64,000 bases of DNA from the NCBI GenBank assembly GCA_021815405.1, contig JAKAGV010000017.1, forward strand, positions 1 to 64,000, in the 5' to 3' direction. This document shows, in pieces, positions 3,959-63,487 of the stretch. The DNA is from Bacteroidota bacterium. GTDB taxonomy: Bacteria; Bacteroidota; Ignavibacteria; Ignavibacteriales; Ignavibacteriaceae. Position numbers and translations under genes: made by a program. How positions within the stretch are numbered: position 1 is the stretch's first letter; each line of letters starts with the position of its first letter. The notes under the pieces were generated by a model, which saw nothing but the letters and a program-made list of their open reading frames with translations, had not been told where the DNA came from and searched no databases.

Positions 3959-5419
3959 TCAGTTCTGAGGAATATTTTTTAAAACGTTGTTGAGAAGATT
4001 CCAGAATTTCTCAACAGTACTTATCTGTACTCTTTCATCTGGTGAGTGCGCACCGATTATTGTTGGTCCGAAAGAAATCATATCCATTTCAGGATAGCGC
4101 TCATTTATTATTCCGCATTCAAGTCCTGCATGGATTGCTTTAACTTCTGGAGCTGTTCCGTATAAATCCGAATAAACTTTTTTCAAAACACCAAGAACTG
4201 GTGATTTAATATTCGGGTTCCATCCGGGATATCCGTCTGATTGCTTCACATCAGCTTTAGCAAGTTTGAACAATGCTGAAATAGAATTTGAAATATCGTT
4301 CTTTTCAGATTCAACAGAACTGCGCTGACTAAGAATAACGTCAACTGTTTTCCCTTTTGTTGATACAACTGCTAAGTTAGTAGATGTTTCAACCAGACCT
4401 TCGATATCCGCACTCATTTTAATAACGCCGTTCTGAACAGTATAAAGAGAGTTGATCAAATTTGTTGCAGTAGGTTTATCGAATACTTTTGCGCGCGATT
4501 TAGTTTCCGAAGCGGCAACATTTAAATTTGGTTCTACGGTTGCAAGTTCAAACTTCACTATTTTATTATATTCCTCTACGTAAGCAAGAACTTCTGCAGA
4601 TTGCTTAGTTGCAACTCTGATAATGGAAAGGCATTCACGTGGTATTGCATTGTGTTTACTTCCGCCGTTGATGCTTGCAAGACGAATTCCAAATTTATAA
4701 TTTAATTCGTGAAGAAGCCTTGCCATAATTTTTATCGCATTTCCTTTTCCGGTATTTATATCCAAACCGGAATGACCGCCTTTCAATCCAATGACTTTCA
4801 ATTCAAGAGCAGTTGTATTTGTAGGCGCATCTGCTGGATTGAATTTGAATTTAACATAAGTATTCTGACCACCTGCACAGCCTATATATAATGCACCATC
4901 TTCTTCAGAATCCAGATTAAGAAGAATTTTAGCCTTGAGCCATCCGGGCTTCAATGCCTGTGCACCAAATAATCCCGTCTCTTCATCAAGTGTGAATAGT
5001 GCCTCGAGTGGACCATGCTCAACTTCTTTTGATTCAATGACAGCAAGTGCAGCTGCAATGCCTATTCCATTATCCGATCCAAGTGTTGTTCCTTGAGCCT
5101 TAACCCAATCTCCATCTACATATGGAGAAATTGGATCTTTGTTCCAATCGTGCTGAACATCGTTATTTTTTTCCGCAACCATATCAAGATGACCTTGAAG
5201 AACTACTGGTGTTAAATTTTCTTTCCCAGGCGTTGCCGGTTTTCTAATTAAAATGTTTCCAAATTCATCTTTTAATGTTTCGAAATTGTTCCTTTTACCT
5301 ACAGACATAACATAACCCGCAATCCTCTCCTCTTTGCGAGAAGGACGCGGATACTTGCAGATTTCTTCGAAGTGGTTCCATACCGCTTCAGGTTTTAAAT
5401 GACCTAGAATGTTTCCCAT
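3959..5419 (-). CDS. pepD: Aminoacyl-histidine dipeptidase (Xaa-His dipeptidase)
   Basis: A 486-residue M20 (PepD/PepV) metallopeptidase, the normal length for PepD. It hydrolyses dipeptides such as beta-alanyl-histidine and other Xaa-His substrates in the cytoplasm using two metal ions. Visible metal-site motifs: HLD at residues 77-79, the bridging Asp116 in GSDNGIGIA, and the catalytic pair in LDEETGLFGA (about 144-153). A central lid/dimerisation domain occupies about 200-390. The C-terminal part has the HAGLECG metal-binding segment. The gene starts one base after the stop of the PqqD-like gene, with GGAG of its ribosome-binding site inside that gene, so it is translationally linked to the OPT-PqqD operon: import followed by hydrolysis of peptides. 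Confidence 0.93.
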   Translation of the reverse strand: MGNILGHLKPEAVWNHFEEICKYPRPSRKEERIAGYVMSVGKRNNFETLKDEFGNILIRKPATPGKENLTPVVLQGHLDMVAEKNNDVQHDWNKDPISPYVDGDWVKAQGTTLGSDNGIGIAAALAVIESKEVEHGPLEALFTLDEETGLFGAQALKPGWLKAKILLNLDSEEDGALYIGCAGGQNTYVKFKFNPADAPTNTTALELKVIGLKGGHSGLDINTGKGNAIKIMARLLHELNYKFGIRLASINGGSKHNAIPRECLSIIRVATKQSAEVLAYVEEYNKIVKFELATVEPNLNVAASETKSRAKVFDKPTATNLINSLYTVQNGVIKMSADIEGLVETSTNLAVVSTKGKTVDVILSQRSSVESEKNDISNSISALFKLAKADVKQSDGYPGWNPNIKSPVLGVLKKVYSDLYGTAPEVKAIHAGLECGIINERYPEMDMISFGPTIIGAHSPDERVQISTVEKFWNLLNNVLKNIPQN

Positions 5420-5420
5420 A

Positions 5421-5855: not shown

Positions 5856-7805
5856 TTACATTGATACTGATGGCGGAGCCGGCTCATCCGGGCTTCCAGC
5901 ATTCTTTAATGAGTACTTAACCAGCAGCCATCCAATGAAAATGAAAATTATAATACTTATCCAGAAAGTTGGATGCTCAAAGAATGAAAATAGTGGAACC
6001 TCTCCAAACTTGAGCCCCGCAAATAGAAGCCCGATCAAGGCTTCTCCGGCTATAAGTCCTGCGGCAATTAATATTCCTCGGTTTTCTACTCTAGTTTTCT
6101 GTGCAGCATTATATTTTCGTTTTGTACTTGTTAAATCTACGATTCCTTTAACCAAACCACCGATAAAAATTGCAAACGTTGTTCCAAGCGGAAGATACAT
6201 TCCAACGCTTACAAGCATAGGACTTTTTACATTCATCATAATGAAACCCACGCCCATCAACATTCCGGCAAAAATTAAAATCCATTCCATCTGTCCGGAC
6301 ACAATTCCTTTGGCAAGAATTGCCATCAAGCTAGCTTGAGGTGCAGGAAGGTTAGCACCGCCGAATCCGGTACCACCGCTTCTAATATCGCCTTCATGCA
6401 AAATAAAAATAGGAATGAACATAACTGCTGAAGCAACTACCAATCCGATTAAATCTCCAACCTGCATTTTCCAAGGAGTACCGCCTAGGATATGACCGGC
6501 TTTCAAATCTTGAAGCATCTCACCTGCAACTGCTGCCGCAACACAAACAACCGCCGCAACTCCTAAAACCGCGGCAACACCTTGAGTTCCAGACATTCCC
6601 AAAAGAACCATCAGTAATGCTGCAACAACTAACGTAGATAATGTTAAACCGCTAATTGGATTATTGCTTGAACCGATAATTCCGACGAGATATCCGGAAA
6701 CTGCCGCAAAGAAAAATCCAGCGATTATCATTACTATGGTAGCAACTAAAGCTGCAGTAATGTTTTGTGCAAAGAAGTTGTAGATAAAAAATGTAGCTAC
6801 ACCTACAGCAAGAATACCAACAATAACCCAATTGAAACTAATATCTTTGTCAGTTCTTGCAGTATGATGCTCACCAGCGGCAGCTTTTTTTACGTCACCG
6901 ATAGAACGAGCAATACCTGCAAGTAAACTCTTACGCATTTTCCACAAAGTATATGCAGCACCAACAAGCATTCCGCCTATTGCAATTGGTCTTACATCAT
7001 CTTGCCATGCTTTTATAATAGCACCAGTATAATCCATACCTGCTGGTAATCCGTTTCCATATTTAAAGTATGCGATAATTGGAGCTAACAATCCCCAAGC
7101 TAAAACACCGCCGCTAAAATTCAATGCAGCTAAATTAGGACCGATAATAAAACCGACTCCCATATAGGCTGGACTAACATCCGGAGACTGAAAAAGAATT
7201 CCTCCTTTAGTAAGATTGATTAATTTTTGATATGAAGTAGCGAATAAATTGAATTGACCTAATGCCTGAATAGCAGCACCTATTCCCATAGCGCTGAATA
7301 AAAATCCGGAACCACTAGAACCATGGCTTCCTGCTTTATGAATTTCCGCTGCTGCTATCGATTCAGGGAATGGAAGCTCAACATCTTCTACCATTACTCT
7401 TCTTAAAAGAGCTACAAACATAATTCCAAGCACACCACCCGCAACCATTATTGCAGTTGAAATTGCATAATGACCTGCCGAATAAAATGGATTCCAAATC
7501 CCAGCTATATAAAAAGCCGGTAAGGTAAAAATTGCACCGGCTGCAATTGATTCGCCGATTGAACCAACAGTTCTAGCAAAGTTTTCTTCAAGTATAGTCC
7601 CTTTCATTAATTTTATAATTGCCATTCCAATAACTGCCGCCGGATAGGTAGCGGCTATTGTCATGCCTGCTTTTAGTCCCAAATAAGCATTTGCAGCTCC
7701 CAACACAACAGCCATAACAAGCCCAATAATAAGTGCTCTGATAGTAAATTCAGCCATGTGGGTTTCAGGTGAGACAAAAGGTACAAACGGTTTTTGTTCC
7801 GGCAT
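5856..7805 (-). CDS. OPT-family oligopeptide transporter
   Basis: A 649-residue integral membrane protein with about 14-16 hydrophobic helices. The N-terminal segment AEFTIRALIIGLVMAV, then NAYLGLKAGMTIAATYPAAVIGM, is the signature of bacterial OPT (YSL/OPT_sf) carriers. The family imports oligopeptides or metal-chelate complexes with protons. An internal EMLQDLKAGHILGGTPWKMQ segment is also typical. ATG with GGAG ribosome-binding site. It is the first gene of a same-strand group with a PqqD-like protein and PepD, pointing to peptide rather than siderophore uptake; that substrate choice is inferred. Confidence 0.92.
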   Translation of the reverse strand: MPEQKPFVPFVSPETHMAEFTIRALIIGLVMAVVLGAANAYLGLKAGMTIAATYPAAVIGMAIIKLMKGTILEENFARTVGSIGESIAAGAIFTLPAFYIAGIWNPFYSAGHYAISTAIMVAGGVLGIMFVALLRRVMVEDVELPFPESIAAAEIHKAGSHGSSGSGFLFSAMGIGAAIQALGQFNLFATSYQKLINLTKGGILFQSPDVSPAYMGVGFIIGPNLAALNFSGGVLAWGLLAPIIAYFKYGNGLPAGMDYTGAIIKAWQDDVRPIAIGGMLVGAAYTLWKMRKSLLAGIARSIGDVKKAAAGEHHTARTDKDISFNWVIVGILAVGVATFFIYNFFAQNITAALVATIVMIIAGFFFAAVSGYLVGIIGSSNNPISGLTLSTLVVAALLMVLLGMSGTQGVAAVLGVAAVVCVAAAVAGEMLQDLKAGHILGGTPWKMQVGDLIGLVVASAVMFIPIFILHEGDIRSGGTGFGGANLPAPQASLMAILAKGIVSGQMEWILIFAGMLMGVGFIMMNVKSPMLVSVGMYLPLGTTFAIFIGGLVKGIVDLTSTKRKYNAAQKTRVENRGILIAAGLIAGEALIGLLFAGLKFGEVPLFSFFEHPTFWISIIIFIFIGWLLVKYSLKNAGSPDEPAPPSVSM

Positions 7806-10129: not shown

Positions 10130-10178
10130 ATTATATCTTATTTATTTCAGAAGGAACTTAAGAAAAGTAAATAAAACT

Positions 10179-10253
10179 TTCAACCGGTTTGGTTGAATAA
10201 TTCATTTTCAACCAATTTGGTTGAAAACTTAAATTTCAACTGATTTGGTTGAA
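10179..10253 (-). promoter_or_regulatory. Three palindromic operators at exact 28-bp spacing
   Basis: TTCAACC-N5-GGTTGAA occurs at 10179-10197 and 10207-10225, and with one change (TTCAACT) at 10235-10253. Start-to-start distance is 28 bp both times. The array lies between the pdxJ stop (10264) and the SatD start (10129), so it belongs to the SatD operon promoter region. Dyad symmetry suggests a dimeric HTH protein, most simply SatD itself. Confidence 0.75.
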
Positions 10254-10263
10254 TGAACTTTTG

Positions 10264-40323: not shown

Positions 40324-41091
40324 TTATTCTTCCCAAAGTATTGTAAGCACCGAATTGTACCTGTACATCGGAATGTTCTGCTCATAAAGGAAGTAATCTT
40401 TTTTATAATTGAAATCTTCCCAGAACCAGGCATCAGCAAGTATTTTCTCCGGCTCGAGTGCAATGTTTTCTCCGTTATAAAATTCATATGCATAGGAAGA
40501 CGAAGTAACTTTGCTGCCGTTTCTAATAAACCTAAACGGGAAATATTCATTTATACGGCTCCATTTAACAACCGAATCTTTACTCATTATAATTGCGACG
40601 GGATGATTCCCTATTTCGGCATAGCGCATAGCCGCGGCACTCAATGATACATTAAAATATTCAGCCGAGGCAGAGAGAACGCCTTTGGTAAACTTTTTCC
40701 CTTTTGTAAAATTACAAAACCATTGTTCCGGCATAAGCAGCTCGGCGGCAAAATCATTTGCATCAATCTCGGCAGAAATGTTCTGCTTGATTCCTCTTAT
40801 ATCCAACCCGCTGCAGAAGAAGCTATTCTCCTTTTTACCGGAATTAAAATAATGCCCAAGCTCGTGAGCAATAGTGAATCTTTTTTGACCACTCTCAGCG
40901 AGCCCGGCATCAACGGAGATAATACCCAAACCGTTCTTAAAAACGAATTGTCCCTCGCAAGATTCAAGCGCTTTTTCCTCAATAAAAATATTTTCACAGC
41001 CGGCAATAGCATATAAATCAATATTACCCGGTTCATCTATGAATAAGCCACGCAATAATCTTTTAGCGTTAGCTTTAGCGAGTATGCTCAT
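40324..41091 (-). CDS. ImmA/IrrE-type zinc metallopeptidase
   Basis: A 255-residue peptidase. HELGH at residues 76-80 in RFTIAHELGHYFN provides two zinc ligands; a downstream acidic patch (IDANDFAAELLMP) is where the third ligand lies in this family, and AELLMPEQWF is a family signature. ImmA of ICEBs1 and IrrE of Deinococcus cleave repressors to trigger gene expression. It overlaps the preceding small gene by 17 bases and shares an operon with a sigma-like gene. The usual partner, a Xre-type repressor, is not visible here. The C-terminal ~110 residues are unassigned. Confidence 0.88.
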   Translation of the reverse strand: MSILAKANAKRLLRGLFIDEPGNIDLYAIAGCENIFIEEKALESCEGQFVFKNGLGIISVDAGLAESGQKRFTIAHELGHYFNSGKKENSFFCSGLDIRGIKQNISAEIDANDFAAELLMPEQWFCNFTKGKKFTKGVLSASAEYFNVSLSAAAMRYAEIGNHPVAIIMSKDSVVKWSRINEYFPFRFIRNGSKVTSSSYAYEFYNGENIALEPEKILADAWFWEDFNYKKDYFLYEQNIPMYRYNSVLTILWEE

Positions 41092-41458
41092 CTTTGTCGT
41101 CCAGAAAATTTTTAAGCTTATCTATTTTCTCCTTCTGTAATTTTAATTCTTCTTTGTTATCATCAGAAGAGCTTTGTTTTCTATACGCAAAGCCTAAATC
41201 ATTTAAAGAAGAATCATCCTCTTTTATTATTCCCATGTTACTAGCTAAATCTTTCAAGAAATCCCCTGCCTTTTGCTGCCTTTCAGTTCCCATTTTTAAT
41301 TTAATCTCCGCTTCCTTCCGGTCTAAAAAATTGTTAGCCCGTGCGATAATTGCATCGGGATCTTCCCCGCGCTCAAGAAAAGTTGACCGAATATCTTCTT
41401 CATCCTCAGAAGGCGAAAGGAAGATGTCGAATAATATTTCAAGTCGCTTATTTGTCAT
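41075..41458 (-). CDS. Small acidic protein of the sigma-ImmA operon
   Basis: A 127-residue hydrophilic protein rich in Asp, Glu and Lys, with a C-terminal coiled-coil-like stretch (EELKLQKEKIDKLKNFLDD). Residues about 20-60 contain EEDIRSTFLERGEDPDAI. No family is recognised. It lies between a sigma-like and an ImmA-like gene and could be the substrate or inhibitor the protease acts on, for example an anti-sigma protein. This is inference from order and size. ATG with AAGGTG upstream. Confidence 0.7.
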   Translation of the reverse strand: MTNKRLEILFDIFLSPSEDEEDIRSTFLERGEDPDAIIARANNFLDRKEAEIKLKMGTERQQKAGDFLKDLASNMGIIKEDDSSLNDLGFAYRKQSSSDDNKEELKLQKEKIDKLKNFLDDKDEHTR

Positions 41459-41485
41459 TTTGCACCTTATTAGTTTGATAAATGA

Positions 41486-42133
41486 TTATTGATATTTTTG
41501 AATTTTTTCAATTAAATCTCTTGGTAAATTCTGTAACAAGTGATAAGGAATATTTTTACTTATTCTCCTCCTAATTTTTCTAATAGCAATTTCAGCTTCA
41601 TTAACTGTAATGCCGAGGTCTAAAGAGATACTTTTCGGCTTATGCTCTTTTATCATCTCGTTAAAAATAATCTGGGCATCTACATCATCGCTAAGAATAA
41701 CTTCCCTGCAATGCTTTTCGATAATATCCGCATCGATGAAGCCTTCAATATCCTGAGGCTTAGTATTAATTAAGATATCCATTTTCGGGTTGCCATCTTC
41801 GTCGTCATTATTATGAGGATTGTCTACTGAAACGTACCGCTTTTCTTTTTTTGCAAGGTTTGAAACTTCACTGTCTATACAGCCCCACATTATCTGTTCG
41901 AGCTTAAATTTATTCATATCCCAGGCTCTCGTTCCGTCTATTAAATCGCTGAAAATTTCATCCATTATCTCTTCAGCCTTGCAGGTTTTCATAAATTCGT
42001 GCCCAAGAAAAATACCAAGCTCTTTCCTGGCATATTCGACCATATCTAGATAGGATTTATGGTTAGAATTTATAAAATACTGAATAGCTTTTCGGCGGCA
42101 TTCTTGTTTTATCAGATCATTCAAAGGAATCAC
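41486..42133 (-). CDS. Sigma-factor-like regulator
   Basis: A 215-residue protein whose shape resembles small sigma-70 family regulators: helices with EEIMDEIFSDLIDGTRAWD and KFKLEQIMWGCIDSEVSNLAKKEKR (region 2-like), an acidic linker, then a C-terminal helical part (KEHKPKSISLDLGITVNEAEIAIRKIRRRI) that looks like region 4 HTH. Similarity is structural in feel; a phage-type DNA-binding protein is the alternative. The frame opens at GTG 42133, but GAGGTG overlaps it and would better serve a TTG four codons in (42124). First gene of the operon with the acidic protein and the ImmA-like peptidase. Confidence 0.6.
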   Translation of the reverse strand: MIPLNDLIKQECRRKAIQYFINSNHKSYLDMVEYARKELGIFLGHEFMKTCKAEEIMDEIFSDLIDGTRAWDMNKFKLEQIMWGCIDSEVSNLAKKEKRYVSVDNPHNNDDEDGNPKMDILINTKPQDIEGFIDADIIEKHCREVILSDDVDAQIIFNEMIKEHKPKSISLDLGITVNEAEIAIRKIRRRISKNIPYHLLQNLPRDLIEKIQKYQ

Positions 42134-42162
42134 CTCATAATATTTTATTCAATTACCTGTAA

Positions 42163-42222
42163 TACTCCCGCAAATTCAAATTCCGTCAAAGACGGAAAGA
42201 TATTTTTTGGGAGTAATACTCC
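42163..42222 (-). promoter_or_regulatory. Nested palindromes, candidate operator of the sigma-ImmA operon
   Basis: TACTCCC (42163-42169) pairs with GGGAGTA (42209-42215). Inside, TTCCGTC (42181-42187) pairs with GACGGAA (42191-42197). The right arm itself belongs to a 13-bp palindrome GGAGTAATACTCC (42210-42222). GTAATACTCC is also directly repeated at 42159-42168 and 42213-42222. The block starts about 30 bp upstream of the sigma-like gene. Confidence 0.65.
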
Positions 42223-42330
42223 TAGAAACAATGAAATTGAAAATGGTAATCGTTAATAAATTAAATATAGTCCATAAAAACAGAAGCCGGAAAAAAGAAG
42301 CAGGCATAAGGAAATATTATCGAGCAATTG

Positions 42331-42517
42331 CCGTTTATTTCATATCCCTTTACCGTCTAAATGCCGTCTGTTTACTATCCATTTGCCGTGAAGTTTCCGT
42401 CAAATTGCCGTCCATTTCATATTTATTTATTACCTGTTTACCGTTTAATACCCGTTTAAATTCCGTAATGCTGCCGTTTTGCTCCCGGGATGCAGCCGTT
42501 CCCGTCTCGTCAAATAA
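42331..42517. repeat. Degenerate 11-bp phased repeat, CCGT-N7
   Basis: CCGT recurs on an exact 11-bp grid: 42331, 42353, 42364, 42386, 42397, 42408, 42441, 42452, 42463, 42474 and 42496. Near matches sit at 42485 (CCGG) and 42507 (TCGT); grid positions 42342, 42375, 42419 and 42430 have lost the core. The seven bases between cores vary (TTAAATT, CAAATTG, CTAAATG and so on). About 17 units in all. Confidence 0.8.
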
Positions 42518-42609
42518 AAAGAATTATAACCGCATAATCAGTGCACTGCCGGTGATTAAAAGAATGTTTGAATCGAACCAGTTTAATAATTTATCGCCGC
42601 CTTACCAAG

Positions 42610-42641
42610 CCCTCGCTCTGCCCTGACCCAAATAGCGAGGG
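42610..42641 (+). terminator. Hairpin, possible terminator
   Basis: CCCTCGCT (42610-42617) pairs exactly with AGCGAGGG (42634-42641), followed by TTCTT. No gene ends just before it on the plus strand, so it may be an mRNA-leader structure or a leftover. Confidence 0.45.
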
Positions 42642-42771
42642 TTCTTGCGGGCACAGGCAAACAGAGTTTTATGTGCAAGTAAGAATATGGGCTTAATTTA
42701 TCATTATGAAAGAAATTAACCGGTTTAAATTAATATAATTTTTAATAATAATTAATAAGGAATAAAATACT

Positions 42772-43458
42772 ATGGCAGAGATAAAGAGCGGCATACTCGG
42801 CAACGTCCGGGGTGCAGTAGGAAAAATAACAGGGCGAATTTACAAAGGGAGAAATATAATAAGCCAAAGACCCGAATTCAGGAGAATTTCCACAAGTCCG
42901 GGTGTAATTACGCATAAAAATAATTTCAAGCTGTGCGTTAAATTCAGCTCGGCGGCATGTTCTATGGATGCAATAAAAGCCGCATGGCAGATGAATTTAT
43001 CACCTGAGATGAATTATTTTAATTATTTCATTCAGACGAACATAAAGCTGGTAAGTGAAGGCATGCTGACGGTAAATAACATAATAACTCCGTACAGCGG
43101 CTTTGCAATCAGCAAGGCTTCAAACGCAATAGCACCTGCTGAAATAAGTATCGGGTTAAGCGCACTATCAGGCTCTTATAACTTTGATACCGCAGTTGAA
43201 GTAAAGGCAAAGCTGTATGCCGTATTGTATCTTTACGGTTCGTCAAATCCACAGGCACCGGAATATTTTTTAATGCCTGTTGAATTCGATACGCAGGCAT
43301 TACAGCTTAATGATCCGCTGTCTTTCACGAAAGCATTTCTGCTTACGGATCAGACAGTGATTGGCGGCTATGCCAATCGAAAGGTATATGCGGCATTAAT
43401 TACATTTGATGCTAACGATGTGCCGGTGAACTTTTCGGCAACATTGTGCATTGAGTAA
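42772..43458 (+). CDS. DUF6266-like (possibly phage-derived) protein
   Basis: A 228-residue protein. The N-terminus KSGILGNVRGAVGKITGRIYKGRNII recalls the start of DUF6266 proteins of Bacteroidota, where a GxxGxVGxxxG-x-KG pattern precedes beta-rich domains; the rest is beta-rich (about 85-225) with no catalytic motif. Such proteins are often found as lone cargo or near phage genes. ATG with AAGGAATAA upstream; a strong terminator follows. Codon use is less AT-rich than in the defence genes downstream. Function unknown. Confidence 0.65.
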   Translation: MAEIKSGILGNVRGAVGKITGRIYKGRNIISQRPEFRRISTSPGVITHKNNFKLCVKFSSAACSMDAIKAAWQMNLSPEMNYFNYFIQTNIKLVSEGMLTVNNIITPYSGFAISKASNAIAPAEISIGLSALSGSYNFDTAVEVKAKLYAVLYLYGSSNPQAPEYFLMPVEFDTQALQLNDPLSFTKAFLLTDQTVIGGYANRKVYAALITFDANDVPVNFSATLCIE

Positions 43459-43469
43459 ACCTACCCTTA

Positions 43470-43500
43470 AAGGCGGCGCTGAAAGGCGCTGCCTTTTTTT
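43470..43500 (+). terminator. Rho-independent terminator
   Basis: AAGGCGGCGC (43470-43479) pairs with GCGCTGCCTT (43486-43495) with one G-T wobble, followed by Ts to 43500. Ends the DUF6266-like transcript. Confidence 0.92.
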
Positions 43501-44068
43501 AACTTTTATATTTTGTTGTAAAAAGCAATCATCGTCTGAACCCCGCCCAGGCGGGCAAGCCTGATTCACAGGATTTTAAGATTAACAGGATAATCGATTC
43601 TTAATCCAATTTGAGAAATTTTTTTAAGAATATTTTAATAGCTGATTGTAAGGGATTGAGAGGTGAAAAAAAACTTGAGCGCTTTTTTCGTCAGTTTGAA
43701 ATTTCTATCGATTTTACTTTTTATATAATGAGTATTTCATTCAGAAGCAGATTTTTATTTGTTAGTAATAAAGCTAGAGACTATGATTAGCGTTGCAATT
43801 ATTGAAGAACTGGAGATGCTTTTGTTATCGGAAATGAGTTGATTGAACAGAGATAATATTTTTTGCAATGGCTACATGGTAATTATTTGTATTGAAAGAA
43901 AAACAATTTGAAATGAATAAACACTTGAGAAGATAGGAAGTTAAGGCCAAGCTTTTGAATAATTACACTAAATATTCCAATTTTAAGGTTATATTTGATT
44001 TTGAAAGATAAATTTATGAATTTACCCACAGCGGTTGAAAAGATTTCTTAGACCAAAGGCATATTTAT
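43501..44068. other. Intergenic region before the AAA gene
   Basis: No gene seen in 568 bp apart from the dispersed repeat at 43534-43593. The DNA from 43600 on is AT-rich and should contain the promoter of the AAA ATPase gene. It marks the left edge of the AT-rich defence-like block. Confidence 0.45.
43534..43593. repeat. Dispersed REP-like element
   Basis: GTCTGAACCCCGCCCAGGCG and the following GGCAAGCCTGATTCACAGG, then ATTAACAGGAT, correspond to a widespread extragenic repeat in which short CAGGAT words recur and a CCCGCC/GGCGGG hairpin sits at one end. Such elements are common in Bacteroidota-Chlorobi relatives and other phyla. Confidence 0.65.
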
Positions 44069-45094
44069 ATGACCCAAATAAATTACATAAAAGAACTTGT
44101 TAAGTATGGGCTTGAAAACGATCAAGAAAAATTCAAGTCTGCTTTAAATGAGTTGATAGAGTATGCAAAGCAAACTAAAAAGACAAATTATGCCTTGCAG
44201 CTGCAGTCTATTTTAAAAGATGCAATTAGAAATGAACAAAACCGAGGTCCTAAGCTTGTCGGCAGCCCTTCGTATTTTACCAGGATTGAAGACCGTGAGT
44301 TAAATGAATTAATTTTAGAGAAAATTACTTCAGAATATAAATTTAAGAATTTGATTGCAGGGAAAGATGTTCTTGAACAACTAGAATATTTTATAAAGGA
44401 ACACAAATCCAAGGATATGTTGAATAATTTACGGCTTTCAGTATCCAACAAGATTTTGTTTTATGGACCATCCGGTTGCGGTAAGACATTAGCGTCTTAC
44501 GTGCTTGCCGGTGAATTAGAAAAGATGATGTATGTTATTAATCTTGGAGCTATTGTTTCTTCTAAGCTAGGTGAGACCAGCAAGAATTTAGCTAAGGTAT
44601 TTAGACAAGCTACTGTTGAAGACTCAATTATCTTTATAGATGAATTTGATTCTTTAGGCAAAATAAGAGACTATGATCAAGACCATGGAGAAATGAAAAG
44701 AATAGTTAATACTATTTTACAGTTATTCGATTATTTACACCAGAACAGTATAATAATTGCAGCAACAAATCAGATTGAGATGATTGATAACGCATTGTTA
44801 AGAAGATTTGATCTTAAGATCAAATTAGATTTGCCGAATCAAAAACAAATAAAGGAACTAATTAGTTTAATTCTAATGAACGGACAGTTTACATTTGATA
44901 GAAAAAATGTACTGTCAACAATATTAAAAGAAGCTAAAGGTTTGTCATACTACAGCATACAAAAATCATTAATCGGCGCAATTAAAAGAAGCATTTTTGA
45001 CACAAACAATAATGAGAACAATAGTATAATAATAAAGACAAGTATTTGGAAAGAACTGCTAAAATTAGAAAGAGAACAAATCAAACTTTCCTAA
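44069..45094 (+). CDS. AAA+ ATPase, partner of subtilase
   Basis: A 341-residue ATPase. An N-terminal helical region (1-100) precedes a classical AAA+ module: Walker A GPSGCGKT (133-140), Walker B IIFIDEFD (187-194), sensor-1 ATNQ, and arginine finger region LLRRFD. It resembles FtsH/spastin-like AAA proteins that are encoded beside S8 peptidases in many genomes. Such pairs have been found in defence-rich regions. Here the pair is convergent: the stop codon overlaps that of the subtilase (CTAA, 45091-45094). ATG start, no strong ribosome-binding site. Probably delivers substrates to, or controls, the peptidase. Confidence 0.88.
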   Translation: MTQINYIKELVKYGLENDQEKFKSALNELIEYAKQTKKTNYALQLQSILKDAIRNEQNRGPKLVGSPSYFTRIEDRELNELILEKITSEYKFKNLIAGKDVLEQLEYFIKEHKSKDMLNNLRLSVSNKILFYGPSGCGKTLASYVLAGELEKMMYVINLGAIVSSKLGETSKNLAKVFRQATVEDSIIFIDEFDSLGKIRDYDQDHGEMKRIVNTILQLFDYLHQNSIIIAATNQIEMIDNALLRRFDLKIKLDLPNQKQIKELISLILMNGQFTFDRKNVLSTILKEAKGLSYYSIQKSLIGAIKRSIFDTNNNENNSIIIKTSIWKELLKLEREQIKLS

Positions 45095-48481: not shown

Positions 48482-50350
48482 TTAAGTTGTCAAAGTATCT
48501 TTGAAAAATCCAAATTGTTCATCAATTAGAATTCTTCTATCTAAGAAACAATTGAATTCTTCACACGAAATATCAGGTAAAAGTGAGCAAGAATAGCAGG
48601 CGGCCAGATTCAAGTTTTCCACACCTTGTCCTTCTGAATTTTCACATATTGGGTCTGATGAGCAATCCTTTGACCTCTCTACAGCACTATTTACAATTCG
48701 ATTTAAATTATCGAGATCATCACATTGACTAACTAAACCGCCTAGACTTCCTTCGGTGCCTTCGATAGCCATGATCATAAAACCTAACATATTATTACTT
48801 ATGTATAGGCGCTCTTGTAGAGAAGCTGCCGGATATCCACAAACATATTCTAATTCTTTAATAATTAAATGAGAGAGTGTATGAATTAGTAAAAATTGCG
48901 GCGTAATGTTTTCACTTTTTCTTCTAATAAATTTACGTTGTGAAGAGAGCGCATTATTTTTTATAATATCTGCTCGTTTAATAATATTCTCATCTATGCA
49001 CCACTTATCAATACGATCTTTTTCAAGTATAAATAATATAGCTTCGCCAAACGACTCTATACCAGGTAATAATAACGTATTAATGTTATTTTTTGAGGTG
49101 GACTGGCGTTTTACTTCGAATTCTTTTTTAAATTCATCTTCTTCCATATTAAGCAAAACAGCGTCCAAGTCTATCGGCATTTGACGAGTAAATGATGTTT
49201 GAACTGAAATTTGTTTTAACTTTTCAATTCTAATTACTTTATCGAATCCATTTATTTTCGCATTTACATTAATTTTAGAAAATTTAATTGAATTATCTGT
49301 AACAGATTCATTATTCAGAAAATAGTCATATTCTACTTCTCTGAATGATTGTTCGGAAATAAAATTCTCTGAGCCTGCTAAATACTTTATAGTTTCAGAT
49401 TCGGGAACATCATAGTCAAGTTTCATATCTCTTATGATTTCATTTTCTAGTTTACCACGATCTAACCATTTAGAAATTAAAACTCTATGTTGTTGTTTTA
49501 GATTAATCTGATTAACTGGGATATAAATACTTGAAATTAAGTTTGCATAATAAATACTGTTACTTGATTTAATTACAACTTTTAATTTTTCTTCACAATT
49601 ATGATGTTCATTCTTACCTAGCCAAGGTTCATTACCACTACATTTCATTCTAAATCCAAAAACGCCACCCAAATTTTCTGCTTTACCGCAGCTTTTACAT
49701 TCTATATGAATTCCAGACAATTCTGAGTTCTCTCTACTAACTGAGTATACTAATTTTTGATTTTGGCAGCACTTTGAACTAAAGTCTAAAAATATTGAAC
49801 CTCCATTATCCTCTTCTTCATCTGAAAAAGAATCTTGTTCTGATGGTTTCTCCTTTGTTTGATTGTTCCAAAACTTCCATGGTATGTCTTGAATATGTCC
49901 ATTAGGACAAGTCATAACAAAACGAACCTGTTCTAATATTTCCTCATTACAGTTTTTGTTCGAACATTTAGGAGGAAAGAAATATTTTTTGTCTTTCCCA
50001 ATCTCGTTCCAATAGTTAAACCATTCATAATATTCTTTGAACTGCTTGCATTTAGGACAATAAAACCATTTGGGGAAATAATTAGCTCGAGGATTTACTT
50101 TCCTATCATATTCATCTGGAACACTTACGATGTGTTGTAGATTTTTAAAAATATATTTAAGCCTATAAAGCAATCTATCATCTATTATTAAGTACTGCTC
50201 AATTTCATTTGAACTCAAAATGTTGCTGTATCCCCAATTATCAAAAGTTTCTATTATTACTGAACCGTCTGTTGTTTCGACAACAGAACCAACTCCACCA
50301 TAACTAGATAGAATCTTATTTTTGCCGTGATTAAAATTATCTTTTGCCAT
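48482..50350 (-). CDS. drmB: DUF1998 protein, DrmB of DISARM
   Basis: A 622-residue protein with an N-terminal NKILSSYGGVGSVVET start and several zinc-binding Cys clusters (YCPKCK near 95, CSNKNCN near 130, MTCPNGH, CKSCGK near 220). The C-terminus is DUF1998: LLIHTLSHLIIKELEYVCGYP, GTEGSLGGLVSQCDDLDNL, and the Cys cluster LAACYSCSLLPDISCEEFNCFLD. DrmB works with the helicase DrmA in the DISARM antiphage system, where DrmAB binds DNA ends. The start overlaps the drmA stop by one base (TAATG), showing tight coupling. Confidence 0.9.
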   Translation of the reverse strand: MAKDNFNHGKNKILSSYGGVGSVVETTDGSVIIETFDNWGYSNILSSNEIEQYLIIDDRLLYRLKYIFKNLQHIVSVPDEYDRKVNPRANYFPKWFYCPKCKQFKEYYEWFNYWNEIGKDKKYFFPPKCSNKNCNEEILEQVRFVMTCPNGHIQDIPWKFWNNQTKEKPSEQDSFSDEEEDNGGSIFLDFSSKCCQNQKLVYSVSRENSELSGIHIECKSCGKAENLGGVFGFRMKCSGNEPWLGKNEHHNCEEKLKVVIKSSNSIYYANLISSIYIPVNQINLKQQHRVLISKWLDRGKLENEIIRDMKLDYDVPESETIKYLAGSENFISEQSFREVEYDYFLNNESVTDNSIKFSKINVNAKINGFDKVIRIEKLKQISVQTSFTRQMPIDLDAVLLNMEEDEFKKEFEVKRQSTSKNNINTLLLPGIESFGEAILFILEKDRIDKWCIDENIIKRADIIKNNALSSQRKFIRRKSENITPQFLLIHTLSHLIIKELEYVCGYPAASLQERLYISNNMLGFMIMAIEGTEGSLGGLVSQCDDLDNLNRIVNSAVERSKDCSSDPICENSEGQGVENLNLAACYSCSLLPDISCEEFNCFLDRRILIDEQFGFFKDTLTT

Positions 50351-58012: not shown

Positions 58013-58088
58013 CGGGGGGTACGGAGGGATAGGGTATAGAGGTATAAGGGTATATAGGTATAGGGTATAAGGGTATGGGGCTGTGTGG
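58013..58088 (+). repeat. G-rich GGGTATA repeat, possible quadruplex
   Basis: The plus strand reads as runs of two to six Gs separated by ATA or TATA: GGGGGG, GGAGGG, then AGGGTATAGAGGTATAAGGG and further AGGTATA/GGGTATA units to GGGG. It lies in the 274 bp between the SDR gene (leftward) and the first glycosyltransferase gene (rightward). Confidence 0.7.
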
Positions 58089-63170: not shown

Positions 63171-63487
63171 AAGTAACGTCCTTTTCTCGCAGGCATTAAT
63201 GCTTTTCCGATAAGGAAACTTCCTTATGCGAATAGCCATACTCCTTATCGGTTAAGCAATATTCTTTAAGCCGTAGTGAACTTTCCTTTGCCAGTATGCA
63301 GTAATCCTTCAGCTTAAAGCAACTTTCCTTATAATGGAAGGAAAATTCCTTTACAGTTAAGCAACTTTGCTAATTACAAAAGGAAAGTTCGCTAACTGTT
63401 AAGCATCGATGCTTCTGCAGAAAGGACAATGCTTTGCCGAAAGGAAAATCCCTTCGGCGAAAGCATTTTTAGCTTAAATTCGAAGGA
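63171..63487. repeat. Degenerate ~21-bp tandem repeat
   Basis: About 14 units of AAnnTTCCTT-N7-AAGS (S is G or C). Seven consecutive units are exactly 21 bp: starts at 63280, 63301, 63322, 63343, 63364, 63385 and 63406. Outer units are 19-24 bp. Each unit alternates a CCTT/GCTT word with an AAGG/AAGC word, so complementary words occur every ~10.5 bp on alternating strands. Confidence 0.75.

Follow-up and report, generated by a model that had tools for sequence, protein, structure and literature searches.

The 64,000-nt stretch of DNA analysed here (the window) contains a tandem array in which a short word recurs on an 11-bp grid, upstream of a gene for a 228-aa protein. Such arrays recur upstream of relatives of this gene, their words covary with the protein, and in some genomes further copies lie dispersed between genes. 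The array would be a tandem site read in 11-bp steps. As the word follows the protein lineage, and the words of several dispersed arrays also precede a 228-aa gene of their own genome, we regard the linked 228-aa protein as the most likely reader, although we place this reading at somewhat less than an even chance.

Table 1. Features at and around the array, in positions of the window.
Feature	Position	Strand	Remarks
11-bp-phased array	42331..42517	+	17 units, CCGT in 11
Leader ORF through the array, 131 aa	42231..42626	+	ATG at 42231; TTG at 42207 a possible start
228-aa protein, remote DUF6266 relative	42772..43458	+	candidate array reader; basic N-terminal half, Ig-like C-terminal half
Palindrome TTCCGTC-AAA-GACGGAA	42181..42197		CCGT(C) word of the array, inverted; lies upstream of the sigma-like gene
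215-aa sigma-factor-like protein	41486..42133	-	divergent from the array
127-aa protein	41075..41458	-	same apparent operon; no convincing family
ImmA/IrrE-type peptidase (Peptidase_M78)	40324..41091	-	Pfam E 1.7e-14

The on-phase CCGT words start at 42331, 42353, 42364, 42386, 42397, 42408, 42441, 42452, 42463, 42474, and 42496, and the remaining six grid points read ATAT, CTAT, ATAT, TTAC, CCGG, and TCGT, with a single further CCGT lying off phase at 42502. The grid is strict and the spacers between the words are variable, the next most conserved part after CCGT being a TT two to three bases 5ʹ of the word. When first-order Markov resamples of 42131–42780 were used as the null, 2000 trials gave a maximum of 4 and a mean of 1.1 CCGT on one phase within 187 bp, compared to the 11 observed, so that composition-matched sequences do not give equal periodicity. 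We also scanned the + strand of the window for any 4-mer except homopolymers at all periods from 7 to 18; the best one-phase count was 11, at the array itself, and the best counts at every other period were 4 to 6. In the 4.97-Mb genome, the pattern (CCGTN7)x3 had no second occurrence and the reversed pattern none at all, and when the word was relaxed to three units with at most three mismatches, a search returned the window array only. Because the resamples never exceeded 4, the other periods never exceeded 6, and the pattern is unique in the genome, the existence of the array is certain, and the preliminary description was right to place eleven CCGT cores on an 11-bp grid, which here occupies a single phase over 17 units. 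Its suggestion that one face of the DNA is read holds locally. The spacing is strictly 11.0 bp, which at 10.5 bp per turn amounts by arithmetic to a drift of about 17 degrees per unit; one face along the whole array would thus require underwound DNA.

The preliminary description had proposed looking for such arrays in related genomes, and the arrays do recur. We collected 131 hits of the 228-aa family from the fetched loci, which reduced to 102 distinct proteins after 29 duplicates were dropped; three of these had short upstream DNA, and the 99 with at least 200 bp upstream were kept. An array was called when period 11 gave z>4 within 520 bp upstream. By this call, 47 of the 99 distinct relatives had an upstream array and 52 had none, compared to two of 96 with a downstream array (L116 and L219). 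The same upstream test at eight other periods (8, 9, 10, 12, 13, 14, 16, and 17) gave between 0 and 5 of 99. When a first-order Markov model served as the null, arrays were found in 46 of 99 upstream and 2 of 96 downstream regions. Five members (the window, L067, L072, L074, and L075) had been preselected for arrays, and without them the upstream count was 42 of 94. In group A, marked by the sequence ..LGNLxAR, arrays were called in 14 of 51 members and absent by the test in 37, and in several of its loci shorter arrays can be made out by eye; outside group A, 33 of 48 relatives had arrays. DUF6266 genes elsewhere in Bacteroidota had an upstream array in 9 of 32 cases and a downstream array in none of 31 (32 loci with usable DNA; L191, L198, L205, and L253 left out), and no array was found at the best-scoring DUF6266 genes (L238–L243). 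The 228-aa protein is the partner common to most arrays here, in a collection for which the family was the bait and in which orphan arrays exist. L073 and L076 carry second arrays with the words of L074/L075 of the same genomes, where no 228-aa gene was found; the one in L073 sits within an ORF ending AVPRPPP.

The preliminary description had assigned the array to the divergent sigma-like/ImmA operon. A profile of 16 relatives of the sigma-like protein matched the RNA polymerase sigma factor 8x6g_H (PDB; E 4.4e-5, positions 9–192 of 199), with 8vd6_A ranking above it although no stretch of that match passes alone; Sigma70_r4_2 was found in 6 and GerE in 8 of the 16, and the window 215-aa sequence alone had no Pfam match. 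It is very unlikely that the reader is encoded by this operon. Its genes do stand beside the 228-aa gene repeatedly (sigma-like in 14, ImmA type in 13, and the 127-aa gene in 8 clustered loci), and the array word recurs in palindromic form before the sigma-like gene of the window; this CCGTC palindrome is conserved in L218 and degenerate in L088. However, among 18 loci with a sigma-like relative (including L072, fetched for its array, and L111, whose sigma-like gene lies on the other side), the upstream array reached z>4 in 9, 3.2–3.9 in 3, and less than 2 in 6, and arrays also occur beside 228-aa genes without a homologue of the window sigma-like gene, such as L075, L085, L089, L092, and L112. 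The other sigma-like genes scanned had no palindrome of the local word by eye, and a general palindrome operator before such genes was rejected. The assignment to the operon was weakened by the 6 of 18 loci below z 2 and by the arrays without such a sigma-like neighbour, and the window array goes with the 228-aa gene more than with the operon.

Around the CCGTC palindrome, 42159–42219 form an imperfect inverted repeat, GTAATACTCCC..GGGAGTAATAC, of which GAGTATTACTC is kept in L088. In L087, an ordinary-looking ECF sigma factor and an anti-sigma-like protein (6236–7445, by eye) lie divergently upstream of the 228-aa gene, and this ECF-like gene was not among the homologues found by neighbour clustering. 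The best PADLOC match of the ImmA-type gene was the defence model capP (E 9.7e-60, residues 6–255). Elsewhere in the window, an AAA ATPase and subtilase pair at 44069–47532 matches the IetAS defence proteins IetA and IetS, and a DrmB-like protein (DISARM) is encoded at 48482–50350 (PADLOC E 1.9e-69); together with the capP-like peptidase, the DrmB-like protein looks like part of a defence island. Other tandem repeats of the window are a short one of AGGGTATA type (58024–58080), a 28-bp repeat (10170–10254), and a 42-bp repeat (63317–63405).

Regarding the level at which the word is read, the array was compared with that of L218. Substitutions within the array were spread over the three codon positions (15/18/17), whereas the right flank (42518–42608) had 5/3/12, that is, third-position substitutions, and the left flank 6/11/9 without third-position excess. 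By unit position, CG of the word was the most conserved pair. Units in the same frame were not more alike than others (0.523, n=85 vs 0.546, n=272), and a coding repeat was ruled out as the cause of the array, as there was no 33-bp excess. RNA structure was ruled out as a general rule, the mean fold z of 43 arrays being -0.64 and -0.72 on the two strands; the window array gave +1.3 and +2.9, and the exceptional L202 array -5.9 and -9.4. Rfam returned one match in 41000–44500, below threshold and outside the array. Given the flat codon-position spread, the lack of extra likeness between same-frame units, and the lack of a general RNA fold, the array word is constrained as nucleic acid. In L202, the units of an array before a DUF6266 gene continue as inverted copies and make a long hairpin.

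A neutral minisatellite, or a side effect of a peptide with an 11-residue repeat, is the least likely explanation of all. It would fit the near-perfect array in L071 (about 5106–5420), which has an apparent 33-bp higher order and adjoins a 228-aa gene in decay (start MAEFKEK.., matched weakly by the profile at E 0.018), but it accounts neither for a strict grid with variable spacers nor for the enrichment upstream only, and the same-frame units show no excess similarity.

The preliminary description had called 11 bp not a coding period, which is right in that evolution of the array ignores codons, yet an open leader frame runs through the array in the window's subgroup. Sixteen relatives have a leader frame ending R-[A/S/G]-P-P, with the third base varying in all four codons. 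At these 16 loci, this frame was open for a median of 68 codons, compared to 9.5 in the other frames, and the first ATG lay 46–104 codons before the motif in 15. RxPP was present upstream in 17 of the 99 relatives (16 once the edge RGPP hit L098 was dropped) and in no antisense or downstream region. L091 and L094 have the RAPP-type leader without an array at z>4, and in L088 the frame that crosses the array is, by eye, not continuous with the conserved right flank. The window leader contains ...NNLSPP (SPP codons 42594–42602) where the relatives end RAPP-like, and therefore lacks the RAPP motif; L218 has NNLSPP as well. RAPP and RGPP are described as motifs that arrest the ribosome and are encoded ahead of other genes (PMC12992588, PMC10987492). 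Where an array overlaps a RAPP-type leader ORF, the same sequence would carry two codes.

The array could instead act in mRNA, through an RNA-bound oligomer on the translated leader, coupled to stalling at RAPP, a reading that ranks third among the alternatives and to which we give a small chance. The RAPP-type leaders of the 16 relatives, with all four codons third-base variable, are in its favour, as is the position of the word on the strand of the 228-aa gene in the family loci compared. It is difficult to reconcile with the low incidence of RxPP (17 of 99 upstream regions, and near 2 of 17 arrays of the genome G026), with group A arrays lying between genes and having no RAPP-type leader, with the LSPP of the window, and with the lack of a general RNA fold signal.

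The words vary by locus (CCGT, TCTCGA, GTCGTT, AAGCC/AGTCTC, CATACT, TGCACT, and others), some single arrays carry different words in blocks, and other arrays have about 2 to 10 conserved positions (70% or more) per unit. Word similarity tracked protein identity, rising from a mean of 0.32 below 25% identity to 0.76 above 60%. The correlation was rho 0.32 overall, a value reached by 0 of 500 permutations, and fell to about 0 when reverse-complement words were used as the control. By segment of the protein, rho was 0.43, 0.22, and 0.25 for residues 1–42, 43–95, and 96–228, respectively, being lowest for the helices of residues 43–95. Shared descent can explain part of this covariation.

Arrays of the same kind are also dispersed in genomes. 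An 800-kb sample of the window's genome contained seven arrays, all intergenic, one of them at the single 228-aa gene of the sample. When the six orphan arrays were compared with 41 family words, a word of an own-genome 228-aa gene ranked first or second for four. For two of these, the best match was the word of the own gene L085; for the other two, the L087 word came second (0.826 vs 0.839 and 0.765 vs 0.786), behind that of L236, from another genome, both times. The last two matched no own word well, with best own ranks of 11 and 4 of 41, and the best matches of all six were in reverse orientation. Whole-genome searches with the L085 and L087 words found 7 and 5 places, respectively, each set including one 228-aa gene, and the reversed patterns found none. 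The window's own word has no dispersed copy in its genome.

In G026, one word, AAAGCCGTN3, occurs at 22 loci, one of which is the 228-aa gene of that genome, and no ORF of at least 100 aa contains any of the 22 arrays. Where the 3ʹ gene is known, 15 of 19 arrays point towards it, from 101–1076 bp. Two of 17 arrays (L265 and L266) have RxPP within 300 bp. By eye, the copies have in common a left flank that ends in TTATATA, as well as a right end near AAGCCATCCTGATTAC, and in 16 of 420 BLAST-matching pairs the match continues for over 20 bp outside the array.

Genomes without the 228-aa gene served for comparison. At threshold 44, none was found in the 400 kb sampled from each of two genomes of the same taxonomic family with no 228-aa match, giving 0 per 800 kb compared to 7 per 800 kb in the window's genome. 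At threshold 42, there were 2 hits in G013 (1 intergenic), 0 in G018, and 7 in the own genome, with local shuffles giving 1, 0, and 1, respectively. The family was present in 50 of 146 genomes searched, own included, and the CCGT pattern was commoner in these than in the rest (11/50 vs 7/96, p 0.012), whereas the reversed pattern was not (11/50 vs 19/96, p 0.46).

Two further explanations bear on the dispersed copies. An unlinked host regulator, of OmpR/PhoB type or another HTH protein, may read the arrays, the 228-aa genes being only frequent targets. We consider this improbable, but a PhoB-type regulator is the main rival because PHO boxes are likewise 11-nt direct repeat units, described as bound head to tail with up to six in a row, and the G026 arrays resemble a regulon in preceding unrelated genes mostly in one orientation. 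Against such a regulator, there are several different words per genome, tied to 228-aa genes, the arrays reach 17 units, and the two family-free genomes sampled have no arrays at threshold 44. The second rival, which we find quite improbable, takes the arrays for non-autonomous repeats that the 228-aa gene disperses or that spread together with it, like REPs with TnpA_REP. In its favour, a single gene goes with scattered copies of its repeat, and the G026 copies are alike by eye in left flank, right end, and units, just as some dispersed copies in the window's genome share unit order. However, we found in general no palindrome and no nuclease family, the spacers differ within one array while the words stay, and the position before the gene is recurrent.

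The candidate reader belongs to a multi-copy family, with 8 matches in the window's genome, and the named records in a search with the group A alignment were from Ignavibacteria, Ignavibacteriales, Melioribacter, Stygiobacter, or labelled only Bacteroidetes bacterium. The N-terminal half of the family is homologous to DUF6266 (PF19781), with an hhalign probability of 97 over residues 12–96 and an E of 5.3e-11 that refers to one single comparison. The window protein had no DUF6266 match at the Pfam gathering score; at E<=0.01, the domain was found in 2 of 45 members, the best at 16.7 bits compared to the cut-off of 23.4. The mean net charge of the family was +4.1 for residues 1–42, +4.9 for residues 43–95, and -5.6 beyond, and the window protein had +7 and +3 in the first two segments. 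Its AlphaFold model had a mean pLDDT of 89. A fold search found no match to a known DNA-binding protein; the matches were potassium-channel, Fn3, and Ig-like proteins at a query TM of 0.32 or less, which we read as probably reflecting the modelled C-terminal Ig-like half. The N-terminal half had no match at E<=0.001, and a viral structure library gave nothing convincing. No nuclease family was found in the 228-aa family, and none of the 45 members had a Pfam match to the HUH Y1 transposase at E<=0.01. A phage origin was rejected, as tblastn with one group A member gave no phage record; one PHROG match (E 0.0078) was found among 45 members. The group A member L187 is on a viral contig, next to genes of the opposite strand that by eye resemble phage-tail genes. 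Group A loci such as L103, L114, L136, and L081 have secreted-thermonuclease-like and small HTH-like genes upstream (by eye), and some have an integrase-like ORF downstream.

The preliminary description had named a protein or oligomer as the natural reader, and one that steps along in 11 bp would still be the best reading. In the mechanism we favour, a sequence-specific protein would pack head to tail along the array, reading the nucleic acid each 11 bp; the 228-aa protein would do so via its basic N-terminal half and thereby control its own transcript; in the window's subgroup, the leader of this transcript also codes, in many relatives, for a RAPP-like peptide. Additional intergenic sites carrying the word of its own array would be targets of the protein in some genomes. 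The data suggest that a protein family is paired with a DNA address of its own in a way not described before. A wider claim, which we offer as speculation and think unlikely to hold in full, is that DUF6266-related proteins are undescribed sequence-specific nucleic-acid binders polymerising on arrays of 11-bp units, with a word per paralogue, autoregulated genes, dispersed sites for some words, and one branch overprinting an arrest leader. As each paralogue would have its own word, there would then be several orthogonal address systems per genome. The arrays give a testable lead for the function of DUF6266 and its relatives; no paper on DUF6266 was found in the literature searched. They also provide natural pairs of protein and word, of which a genome can have several. 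Such pairs, if they prove true, would reveal how the binding words of paralogous regulators are kept apart and would put modular 11-bp operators on offer.

None of the named families tested (PHO box, REPtron, ParMRC/parC, and RAPP arrest peptide) matched in all features. Our literature search on 11-bp phased direct-repeat arrays, including Bacteroidetes, returned nothing on such arrays; tandem operators are familiar, but no gene family that combines 11-bp words of its own with dispersed cognate arrays turned up in the literature searched. The TAACTGA heptamer repeats of Beggiatoaceae and some Bacteroidetes are mostly intergenic, direct, and oriented before start codons, and as described they are one heptamer genome-wide, no linked gene family being part of that description (PMC4679880). 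The parC centromeres of ParMRC plasmids, such as R1, are described as direct 11-bp repeats with plasmid-specific recognition (PMC9426499). In contrast, the arrays here are chromosomal, the 228-aa protein has no ribbon-helix-helix match, and ParM/ParR genes were found neither among the window neighbours nor, by eye, in the neighbour clusters.

The arrest peptides ApdA, ApdP, and the RQH family are reported as short upstream ORFs ending RAPP, RSPP, or RGPP (PMC10987492, PMC12992588). The 16 relatives resemble them in a RAPP-like-ended short ORF before another gene, with putative stalling, but here the leader contains an 11-nt array, the downstream gene has no known secretion link, and the window copy reads LSPP. 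The PHO boxes of PhoB/PhoP, which are OmpR-type response regulators, share with the arrays here the 11-nt head-to-tail direct repeat unit, bound cooperatively in the published accounts (PMC4415409, PMC7866108). They differ in having, as described there, two to six units and one consensus per species, compared to up to 17 units and several words per genome, and the arrays here are generally without a linked response regulator. The PHO-box unit has seven well conserved and four weak positions; the window unit has a CCGT core and a weaker TT. REPtrons, finally, are described as a TnpA_REP gene with nearby repeats and cognate intergenic REP copies co-evolving in sequence (PMC8266576). The REPs of that account are palindromic, mostly preceded by GTAG, and paired with a domesticated transposase, whereas the arrays here are direct 11-bp units; the likeness lies in a gene with cognate dispersed intergenic repeats, which we observed for three words, though not for the window's own.
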